Positions 61,387-63,973 of a stretch of DNA of 64,000 bases are shown here, piece after piece; position 1 is the first letter of the stretch, and every line of letters begins with the position of its first letter. The notes beneath the pieces were generated by a model that was not told the origin of the DNA, made no database searches, and saw nothing but the letters and a program-made list of their open reading frames with translations. The position numbers and the translations under genes were made by a program. This DNA comes from Chryseobacterium indologenes (GTDB lineage: Bacteria; Bacteroidota; Bacteroidia; Flavobacteriales; Weeksellaceae), in contig CP065590.1 in NCBI GenBank assembly GCA_016025055.1, positions 4,278,001 through 4,342,000 of the forward strand. Direction: 5' to 3'.

Positions 61387-61420
61387 AACAAAAAGCACTG
61401 AAATTTCAGTGCTTTTTGTT
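61387..61420. terminator. Bidirectional terminator after the DUF4286 gene
   Basis: AACAAAAAGCACTGAAATTTCAGTGCTTTTTGTT in two halves (61387-61403 and 61404-61420) is an exact 17-bp palindrome between convergent genes. Confidence 0.85.
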
Positions 61421-61634
61421 ATCTGTGATGTCTATGGCCACGACCTTTGTGGTGATGCCCGCGATCGTCATAAATATATACCCGGTCTGCATGACCAGGA
61501 GCATAATACCTGGCACTTCCTCCATATACTCTTTTTGCATGCCCGGGAGGCATTCCTCTTCTGTCATGAACCACACATGATGATAACATGACCACCATCA
61601 CTACGCCCGATGCAATTTTCAACATACTTTTCAT
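61419..61634 (-). CDS. Small basic lipoprotein, copy 1
   Basis: 71 residues. Lipobox LSSC (Cys at residue 20) and a short mature part rich in Gly, His, Tyr and Arg, ending HHKGRGHRHHR. The core PPGHAKRVYGGSARYYAPGHADRV shares its pattern with the neighbouring copy 2 (61715-61910). The His-rich end may bind metal. The family, common in Chryseobacterium and relatives, has no known role. The start at ATG 61634 gives the best signal peptide. Confidence 0.75.
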   Translation of the reverse strand: MKSMLKIASGVVMVVMLSSCVVHDRRGMPPGHAKRVYGGSARYYAPGHADRVYIYDDRGHHHKGRGHRHHR

Positions 61635-61714
61635 TATTTCACTTTTTCAAACTTAGTAGCAAAATATATCAATGTTGATGCCAAATCGACTTATTAATTT
61701 TTCCGGTTTTTTCT

Positions 61715-61910
61715 TTAATATCCTCTTCTCTTTTTAACCTGTCCGGGAGCATAATCTTTAGCGCTTCCTCCATAGATTTTTTTGGCTTGTCCGGGAGGAA
61801 TTTTATTTCCATTATGATAGCCATTATATCCCCCTATTGTCGTATGCCACACATGATGTTAACATCAATGTCACAATAAGGACTCCTGTAATTTTACCTA
61901 TATTTTTCAT
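61715..61910 (-). CDS. Small lipoprotein, copy 2 (frameshifted paralogue)
   Basis: ATG at 61910 gives MKNIGKITGVLIVTLMLTSC, a lipoprotein signal, then VAYDNRG and a stop. A second frame carries GYNGYHNGNKIPPGQAKKIYGGSAKDYAPGQ to a stop at 61715. Removing one base from the C5 run on the plus strand (61830-61834) joins them into a 64-residue protein. The PPGxAKxxYGGSAxxYAPG pattern is the same as in copy 1, so this is a tandem duplicate. Function unknown. Confidence 0.65.
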
Positions 61911-62023
61911 TATTTTCACTTTTCCAGTCTTAACGGTGAAATATATCAATGTTGATGCCAAGATATTTTTAACGTAAGAATTGTAAATAAATAGTTGATA
62001 AAATCAAACCAGGATGATGATAT

Positions 62024-62515
62024 TTATAGCATTTCACTTCTTTTTTCAAACATGATAACGTCTTTCCATACACCGTTGAGTTTTCCTAATCTTTTGCGAA
62101 CTCCCACTATTCTGAAGCCGTTTTTCTGGTGAAATTTAACTGAAGCGTCATTGTCAGAGAAGATGTTGGTCTGTAATGTCCAGAATCCGTGGTCCTCGCT
62201 ATCTAAAATCATCTTTTTAAGCAATACCGAACCCAATCCCTTTCCCTGATATTCATTATCGAAATAGATACTTACTTCCGCCACTCCTTTGAAACATTCT
62301 CTTTTGCTTACCGGCTTTAGGGCACACCATCCCACGACTTTATTATCTTCGTTTTCGAGTACCCAGCGGCAATCATTAAAATATTCCATATCCCAGGCCT
62401 CAGCGGTTGGAATTTCTGTTTCGAAAGTGGCCATTCCGCTATCCACACCTTGTTTAAAGATTTCCAGCACACGGCTTTCGTCGCTGGGAAGCATTTCTCT
62501 TAATTCGTAATTCAT
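62024..62515 (-). CDS. Phosphinothricin-acetyltransferase-like GNAT protein
   Basis: 163 residues. The order of motifs is that of the PAT/YncA group: SGMATFETEIPT near residue 27, WCALKPVSKR near residue 63, the acetyl-CoA loop YFDNEYQGKGLGSVLL (QxxGxG) near residue 90, and FHQKNGFRIVGVRKRLGKLNGVWKDV near residue 130. Members acetylate phosphinothricin or methionine sulfoximine/sulfone, and some act on other amines. It follows DUF421 by 5 nt, so the two are one transcript. Confidence 0.86.
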   Translation of the reverse strand: MNYELREMLPSDESRVLEIFKQGVDSGMATFETEIPTAEAWDMEYFNDCRWVLENEDNKVVGWCALKPVSKRECFKGVAEVSIYFDNEYQGKGLGSVLLKKMILDSEDHGFWTLQTNIFSDNDASVKFHQKNGFRIVGVRKRLGKLNGVWKDVIMFEKRSEML

Positions 62516-62520
62516 TGCGT

Positions 62521-63033
62521 TTAGTGATATTTTCTTTTTATTTTTCTTTTAATCCTTGCATAATGGGTCTGTTTACTTTTTCCGTCTTCAGAAACCACAC
62601 TGATATTCCCGTCTACTTCCAGAACAGATAATTTTACATGTTTTATATCTTCAATACCATGTTCACGAATGGCTTCCTCCAGTTCGTCCTGTGTAATTTT
62701 TACACGGTTTAAAGCCGTCTGATCCGCAATTCCGTCCCTAATCAATATGACAGGTTCATCTTCCATAAAGGTTTCGAAAGAACGGCTTGAGAACATTAAC
62801 CGTTTCAAAATGAAATTAGCTAAAAACAGGACGAGCGCAGCCACAATGCCACCTTGTAATGATGTGTCGGGTCCTACCATTGCGTTTTGAACTGCATTGG
62901 AAATCAAAAGCAACAAAACAACATCCCCGGCATTAAGCTGAGAAAGCTGATTTTTTCCAAACAGACGAATTCCGATTACCATAAACAGGTAAACACAAAG
63001 GGAACGGACTGCAACATTGAGAATAGGATCCAC
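62521..63033 (-). CDS. DUF421 (YetF/YcaP-like) membrane protein
   Basis: 170 residues. Two to three N-terminal membrane helices contain the family signature GIRLFGKNQLSQLNAGDVVLLLLIS split over residues 20-48, then a soluble DUF421 domain (EPVILIRDGIADQTALNRVKIT and ELEEAIREHGI). YetF-type proteins are widespread in Gram-positives and Bacteroidetes; suggestions include a role in membrane stress, but none is proven. It is first of a two-gene operon with the acetyltransferase. Confidence 0.86.
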   Translation of the reverse strand: MDPILNVAVRSLCVYLFMVIGIRLFGKNQLSQLNAGDVVLLLLISNAVQNAMVGPDTSLQGGIVAALVLFLANFILKRLMFSSRSFETFMEDEPVILIRDGIADQTALNRVKITQDELEEAIREHGIEDIKHVKLSVLEVDGNISVVSEDGKSKQTHYARIKRKIKRKYH

Positions 63034-63222: not shown

Positions 63223-63771
63223 ATGATGAAACAATTTCTGGTATATCTTGGTATTTTATTTTTCGCTATCTCCTGCAATAAAAAGGGAGAGTCAGCTGCA
63301 TCAGTCAGTGACAGCATTAGCATTACAGCAAAGATCAATGCACTGTACAGCCAGTATGGGAAGTCTAATGAAATGGTTTACAAGCAACCAATTCCGGGCG
63401 ATTTATTTTCCGAAAGCCTGAAAAAAGAACTGGAAAAAGCCATAGAAACTTCAAAAGCAGATATGGAAAAAGTGAAAAAGAGCGCCCATCCGGATGAGAA
63501 ACCCCTGATATTTGAAGGAGCCATTTTTTCAAGTTTATATGAGGGCTTTACCAGGTATAAGATTCAATCCACAGATATTCATGATACAACAGCTGATGTG
63601 ACGGTTCAGTTTGAATATAATCAGGCTACTCCTCATGTAGTATGGACGGATAAGGTACATTGTATCAAGGAAAATAACCAATGGAAAATAGACAATATCA
63701 GTTTTGATCCGATAGGGAATTCAGGAAACCTGAAGATAAGACTTTCTGATTTTATTCAAAATACGCCTTAA
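63223..63771 (+). CDS. Lipoprotein of DUF3828 type
   Basis: 182 residues. The lipobox AISC places the Cys at residue 18. The mature part is a mixed alpha/beta domain, with an early helix (ISITAKINALYSQYG) and a closing strand pattern (DKVHCIKENNQWKIDNISF) as in DUF3828 and related SnoaL-like secreted proteins. Function unknown. It runs toward the bacteriocin-like peptide gene and shares a bidirectional terminator with it. Confidence 0.78.
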   Translation: MMKQFLVYLGILFFAISCNKKGESAASVSDSISITAKINALYSQYGKSNEMVYKQPIPGDLFSESLKKELEKAIETSKADMEKVKKSAHPDEKPLIFEGAIFSSLYEGFTRYKIQSTDIHDTTADVTVQFEYNQATPHVVWTDKVHCIKENNQWKIDNISFDPIGNSGNLKIRLSDFIQNTP

Positions 63772-63775
63772 TAGA

Positions 63776-63799
63776 AAAACCGCTTTTGGAAGCGGTTTT
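63776..63799. terminator. Bidirectional terminator at the right edge
   Basis: AAAACCGCTT (63776-63785) and AAGCGGTTTT (63790-63799) with a TTGG loop, between the convergent DUF3828 and peptide genes. Confidence 0.8.
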
Positions 63800-63807
63800 A
63801 TATTTTT

Positions 63808-63942
63808 TTACGGACATTGAACGATTGGAACGTCACTGCAAAAAACTTTATTTGCCCATTCGCAATACGTGCAGTATTGTTTAGGTTCTCCTCCGTACAC
63901 TGATTTCAAATCTGACTTCGTCAGTTTCTTTACATTTTTCAT
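63808..63942 (-). CDS. Double-glycine leader, Cys-rich bacteriocin-like peptide (44 aa)
   Basis: Read directly from the minus strand: ATG 63942, stop 63808-63810, 44 residues. The leader MKNVKKLTKSDLKSVYGG has the pattern 'LT...LK.V.GG' of double-glycine leaders cut by C39-peptidase ABC transporters. The core after GG is 26 residues, acidic to neutral, with four cysteines (24, 27, 35 and 43) that could form two disulfides. Such short peptides are frequent in Chryseobacterium and are annotated as bacteriocin-like. A -7 box is 23 nt upstream. No peptidase or transporter is in the window; whether it is toxic, a signal or a scaffold for modification is unknown. Confidence 0.7.
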   Translation of the reverse strand: MKNVKKLTKSDLKSVYGGEPKQYCTYCEWANKVFCSDVPIVQCP

Positions 63943-63965: not shown

Positions 63966-63973
63966 CAAAAATA
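63966..63973 (-). promoter_or_regulatory. -7 box of the double-glycine peptide gene
   Basis: TATTTTTG on the minus strand matches TAnnTTTG, 23 nt before the ATG at 63942. The -33 region falls at the window end and could not be judged. Confidence 0.5.

Follow-up and report, generated by a model that had tools for sequence, protein, structure and literature searches.

Genomes of Chryseobacterium encode tens of leader-bearing peptide precursors each, so far named merely 'bacteriocin-like', and a short gene in the DNA analysed here, a 64,000-nucleotide stretch of the Chryseobacterium indologenes chromosome (G000:C1:4278001-4342000; hereafter the window), raises the question of whether its product is one more of these or a peptide with a role of its own. 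The gene lies at 63808–63942 on the minus strand (stop codon included) of a 4.92 Mb single-contig genome. As a preliminary description of this DNA had reported, the frame, opening with ATG and closing with TAA, encodes a 44-aa precursor composed of an 18-aa leader with a double-glycine end, MKNVKKLTKSDLKSVYGG, and a 26-aa core with four cysteines, EPKQYCTYCEWANKVFCSDVPIVQCP.

The 44-aa precursor and its gene

Because homologues occur across the genus, the product is fixed at 44 aa, the cysteines do not vary and dN/dS is low, 63808–63942 is a genuine gene. Pooled over orthologous loci, dN/dS is 0.122 for the core and 0.157 for the leader, as calculated from sequence pairs with pS < 0.5 (426 of 3655 pairs for the core and 959 of 3655 for the leader). 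Product length is 44 aa, with zero length variants, in all 89 parsed loci, comprising our own, its 29 best matches and 59 of 60 loci picked across the identity range. A frame-broken copy in one genome (G164), and the 33 of 173 genomes counted as lacking the peptide, might suggest that the ORF is spurious or decaying, or that the conserved element is non-coding; this has next to no probability, being ruled out by codon-level constraint (dN/dS of 0.12–0.16) and by the constant length in 89 of 89 loci.

Double-glycine (C39) leaders are defined by GG at positions -2/-1 and hydrophobic residues at -4, -7, -12 and -15. Judged by its residues, the leader studied here (63889–63942, minus strand) is of this canonical form, and alignment across the genus, as proposed in the preliminary description, bears this out: GG is present in 89 of 89 orthologues, hydrophobic residues occupy -15, -12 and -7 in 89 and -4 in 88, and D or E is found at -8 in 84. 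The peptide had also been called unannotated, which holds for its 26-aa core, matched by no Pfam or NCBIfam model, but not for its leader. The latter passes the cut-off of NCBIfam NF047798 (leader_Chryseo, 'bacteriocin-like protein'; 26.2 bits against 23.5), a model spanning the 18-aa leader only and leaving the core outside its reach, and the two relatives found in databases go under the names 'bacteriocin-like protein' and 'protein with bacteriocin-type signal sequence'. A second family, NF047792 (CCPGW family putative bacteriocin), has a similar leader that aligns over positions 1–19, but the peptide reaches 15.5 bits where 80 are required, through the leader alone and with its core unmatched, and falls outside that family.

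Also borne out were the gene's own -7-like box and a shared terminator-like hairpin. Bacteroidota promoters carry the -7 pattern TAnnTTTG, and a promoter-like box of this kind, TATTTTTG, lies at 63966–63973 (minus strand), 24–31 nt before the ATG. The strict pattern occurs in 31 of the 89 orthologous loci, and the relaxed form TAnnTTT[G/A], starting between -45 and -22, in 73, compared with 9.3% of shuffled stretches. Upstream of the box, TTG is found at a spacing of 24–25 nt in 43 box-bearing loci and of 16 nt in 4, with spacings of 16–27 scored, and a -33 element is not clear from these sequences. A terminator-like hairpin at 63776–63799, with a T-rich tail on either strand, sits between the peptide gene and a convergent 182-aa gene and would be common to both; 73 of 89 loci have a similar hairpin 3' of the peptide gene. 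The stretch from -18 to -1 before the ATG is A-rich and strongly conserved among the 89 loci (about CCATAAAATTAAAACTAT), and perhaps serves strong translation.

Within the core (63811–63888, minus strand) the cysteines, at precursor positions 24, 27, 35 and 43, are invariant in the 89 orthologues, as are P20, Y23, S36, Q42 and P44, and net charge ranges from -1 to +2 (median 0). For the core of the host genome the calculated monoisotopic mass is 3045.32 Da when two disulfides are formed and 3049.35 Da when reduced. An AlphaFold2 model built from 34 sequences, of modest confidence (mean pLDDT 69.4, pTM 0.35), predicts a helix at residues 9–16 of the leader and strands at 23–27 and 32–36 (block means 81 for residues 21–40). 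The predicted hairpin would set Cys24 opposite Cys35, leaving Cys27–Cys43 as the other pair, and the core probably carries two disulfides. A Foldseek search of the PDB with the precursor model gave nothing convincing (best E 1.9).

Chromosomal slot, neighbours and distribution

The peptide gene occupies a recurrent slot, ordered uvrA, often sec134 (a 134-aa secreted-looking protein), the peptide, often the convergent 182-aa gene (lipo182), YetF/DUF421 and GNAT. Among the 89 loci, uvrA was found in 67, sec134 in 59, lipo182 in 64, YetF in 74 and GNAT in 70, all of them lower bounds, 29 loci reaching just 1.5 kb per side. The YetF/DUF421 protein (62521–63033, minus strand; PF04239) and the GNAT acetyltransferase (62024–62515, minus strand; PF00583) serve as slot markers and stand outside the mechanism proposed below. 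A YetF match was also found in 29 of the 33 peptide-less genomes: in 24 of these 29 loci sec134 ends 95–117 nt before YetF with no double-glycine precursor between, and the remaining five run into a contig end, have a disrupted YetF or show a wider gap.

Several further features of the surroundings were observed. To the right of the window, uvrA (L017:6757-9704) is divided into two frames of 722 and 221 aa, and in related loci, where covered, it is one long frame; two other C39 exporters (L174, L175) have broken frames too, and either assembly indels or decay could account for both. About 5 kb upstream of the peptide gene, at L017:10771-13117, are type VI secretion genes that encode baseplate proteins similar to TssF and gp25. 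At 61419–61961 (minus strand) of the window are two small adjoining ORFs of 71 and 45 aa, with a lipoprotein-like start, no Pfam match and repeated PPG[HQ]AK..YGGSA..YAPG-like stretches; an ORF resembling this pair adjoins YetF in another genome (G137).

As the preliminary description expected, homologues that share leader and cysteine spacing exist, and 140 of the 173 genus genomes have one. At E ≤ 1e-3 the tally was 141, from which one genome (G143) was dropped for a match at the level of the leader only, and the 140 take in three incomplete or doubtful copies: a match to residues 1–31 at a contig end (G003), a copy with stop codons in its frame (G136) and the frame-shifted copy in G164. Genomes carry a single full-length copy, except for second ones in G071 and G034, and in G126 a divergent paralogue of 44 aa lies some 2.1 kb away. 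A search with the aligned peptides listed 80 loci in named genomes, every one titled Chryseobacterium. Among family genomes of other genera, with at most 22 candidates scored per genome, 8 of 147 had peptide matches (best E 2.6e-9 to 2.3e-5; intact orthologues score 3.1e-23 or better). The best of these (G247) is a different 51-aa precursor, and the candidate of a full orthologue outside the genus was rejected. On a tree of 101 YetF proteins (a single 170-aa protein, midpoint-rooted), the presence and absence of the peptide needs five changes, or four without G021, and most peptide-negative genomes fall in one clade of 20 and one of five.

The frequent, though non-obligatory, neighbour lipo182 (63223–63771, plus strand), a putative lipoprotein, brings in the possibility that the two genes form a functional pair, either toxin and immunity protein or signal and surface receptor. 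Of 108 genomes with a lipo182 match, 105 are among the 140 that carry the peptide and 3 among the 33 that do not, and in 103 of those 105 the gene is convergent with and adjacent to the peptide gene (median gap 48 nt, range 39–439), as favours a pair. However, lipo182 is unmatched at E ≤ 1e-5 in 35 of the 140 genomes with the peptide, and in many loci YetF starts just 236–441 nt past the peptide ATG, leaving no room for it. Conversely, G146 and G154, the genomes examined among the peptide-less ones without a YetF match (G030 and G130 were left out), keep lipo182 and have no peptide. These genomes, together with peptide loci devoid of lipo182, rule out an obligatory pair, and the counts ignore kinship, common location and descent accounting for most of the association. 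Since each gene occurs alone, shared location comes first as an explanation, and a partnership, although possible, is improbable. Searches of defence families gave no match for the peptide, lipo182 or sec134.

A candidate export operon and the precursor repertoire

The preliminary description had proposed a C39 exporter in the genome while calling the exporter undescribed; the first part was confirmed, and for the second a candidate can now be named. The host genome has four C39 domains, three elsewhere and one within a conserved operon comprising a VKOR-thioredoxin fusion (505 aa), an NF047798-leader precursor (54 aa), a C39 ABC exporter (733 aa) and an HlyD protein (432 aa). The exporter gene (G000:C1:2393922-2396120) lies outside the window, about 1.9 Mb from the peptide gene, and its listed orthologues in the genus are 89–97% identical. 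Among the matches listed, the exporter is preceded at 186–425 nt by a same-strand leader-family match in at least 13 genomes, including our own. The fusion (L172:8461-9978, minus strand) heads the operon; some 140 aa at its N terminus are additional and match nothing in Pfam.

By leader family and by the make-up of this operon, the peptide would be exported by the VKOR/C39/HlyD machine, and export with leader cleavage is very probable. Further, the presence of a VKOR-thioredoxin oxidase fits pairing of the cysteines. This oxidase, encoded in the likely export operon, argues against a different reading, in which none of the four cysteines is paired and the peptide, once secreted, binds a metal or heme. 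Such binding would suit the CxxC spacing at 24–27 and the invariance of the cysteines, but profile searches for solved relatives and metal-binding proteins yielded no convincing match (best E 0.33), and we regard it as highly improbable.

The view that the peptide is simply one more of many such precursors is not supported by comparison with others of the leader family, which reaches 47 matches at E ≤ 1e-3 in one genome of the genus. When the cores of 18 precursors of the host genome were searched against 15 genomes (E ≤ 1e-5), the peptide was found in 11 and a paralogue, p1511026 (G000:C1:1511026-1511184; L177), in 14, whereas the other 16 cores were found in 0–9 genomes, among them the precursor beside the exporter in 3; the 15 genomes were chosen as peptide-positive and all carry its gene, so that short cores are under-detected and the patchiness of the others is a lower bound. 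The paralogue shares the leader family and a cysteine-rich core with the near-universal 44-aa peptide, and differs in its 35-aa core, five cysteines, net charge of -4 and location at another locus. At E ≤ 1e-8 it was found in 153 of 173 genus genomes, corresponding to 153 of 163 with the exporter and 0 of 10 without. The idea that the 44-aa peptide is uniquely conserved was dropped, p1511026 being at least as widespread in both the 18-core control and the genus search. These core comparisons point to a small conserved set within a largely patchy precursor repertoire. With at least two near-universal peptides set against a mostly patchy remainder, probable weapons can be told from peptides that probably serve housekeeping or signalling. 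This yields a short list of peptides and genes, and the leader-family set as a whole gains an exporter and an oxidase as candidates.

Co-occurrence with the exporter was also examined across the genus. The exporter was counted as present at a best E of 0, plus one broken copy (G128, 6e-138), and as absent in six genomes with a weaker match (1e-203 to 1e-225) and four with no match at E ≤ 1e-100; these calls rest on best E, the identity of the best match being listed for part of the genomes (G106, G085 and G088 not among them), and a few of the present calls may be paralogues. The leader family is matched in 160 of 173 genomes, of which 159 belong to the 163 that have the exporter and one to the 10 that lack it. 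The peptide itself is found in 140 of the 163 and in 0 of the 10 (Fisher p 2e-8), leaving 23 exporter-positive genomes counted without it, one of which (G021) is not a firm negative. In a tree-aware independent-pairs test the peptide gave 0 pairs in the same direction, 0 opposite and 4 without difference, and p1511026 and the leader family a mean of 2.7 of 4 pairs the same way and 0 opposite, a lean in the expected direction short of significance, with four supported pairs only and p never below 0.25. For the peptide the pairs are uninformative, and its co-occurrence with the exporter, although it fits export by this machine, was not taken as a demonstration of exporter dependence.

Proposed mechanism, roles and known systems

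Taken as a whole, these observations are best explained by an exported, probably two-disulfide peptide of the widely shared genome with a conserved extracellular role, a reading to which we assign a probability of about 0.5. The peptide gene would be driven by its own promoter-like box and end at the shared terminator. Recognised by the C39 peptidase of the ABC exporter, the 18-aa leader would be cut off after Gly-Gly, as leader family and machine suggest, and the 26-aa core would leave via the exporter and its HlyD partner, with the VKOR-thioredoxin helping cysteine pairing, most simply as Cys24–Cys35 and Cys27–Cys43. The released core would act under stabilising selection, most likely on the producer's own kind or its own envelope. 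Four points appear to be new, namely that the core is conserved throughout the genus, that its gene keeps to one locus, that an operon for export and oxidation can be proposed and that p1511026 is conserved as well: searches of the open-access literature listed no paper on any of these, on the 44-aa peptide or on leader model NF047798.

As to what the core does, a non-toxin extracellular role, as a signal or an envelope-acting factor, has a probability a little short of even, and an antibacterial role is a tentative alternative close behind it. We lean slightly towards the former because the gene is carried almost universally and at one locus, its product has a constant length and a charge close to neutral, selection on it is purifying, and no partner is obligatory. 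Conservation at a fixed locus without such a partner weakens the case for an arms-race toxin, killing being still compatible with it, and conservation alone may be compatible with a bacteriocin that has a conserved target. The antibacterial alternative would take the form of a class II-like, bacteroidetocin-like bacteriocin that is exported, disulfide-bonded, lethal to related Bacteroidota through a conserved surface target and devoid of a dedicated immunity gene. The leader family bears the name 'bacteriocin-like', and the export operon holds functional counterparts of the bacteroidetocin exporter and oxidoreductase. Near-constant sequence and length at one fixed locus across the genus speak against it, as do exporter genes that are not adjacent to the peptide gene and a core of just 26 aa with a net charge of -1 to +2, class II bacteriocins usually having cationic cores. 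Precedent lends this alternative some weight, in that bacteroidetocins kill Bacteroidales via a conserved target, the essential BamA (PMC8546649), and PMC6671954 reports that no immunity gene was found.

A broader scheme, in which one disulfide-forming C39 machine ships two conserved signals or envelope factors (the 44-aa peptide and p1511026) along with patchy, fast-changing, cysteine-rich weapon peptides, is rather doubtful at present. If true, it would place the conserved pair among the first genus-wide peptide signals in Bacteroidota, of which, to our knowledge, few or none were previously known.

Comparison with known systems sets the peptide apart from several groups. In streptococcal pheromone systems the peptide gene adjoins that of a cognate sensor kinase or regulator; no such gene is among the neighbours of the 44-aa peptide gene. 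Class IIa (pediocin-like) bacteriocins are distinguished by a YGNGVxC motif (as given in PMC6671954), which is absent from the core. The closest likeness is to the bacteroidetocins, also of Bacteroidota, which combine a double-glycine leader and four cysteines with a C39 ABC exporter and a thiol oxidoreductase (PMC6671954), features with counterparts in the system described here; where bacteroidetocins have four cysteines, and at least two, the peptide has four that are invariant. In the same source, the five best-aligned bacteroidetocins have leaders of 15–16 aa and cores of 42–48 aa, their exporter genes adjoin the peptide gene, the neighbours comprising an ABC transporter/peptidase, a TM protein and mostly a thiol oxidoreductase, and killing was demonstrated for four. 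In contrast, the 44-aa peptide has an 18-aa leader, a 26-aa core and, as neighbours, uvrA, sec134, lipo182, YetF and GNAT, its candidate export operon lying elsewhere. On leader length, core length and gene neighbourhood we rejected its assignment to the bacteroidetocins; it may still work like one.
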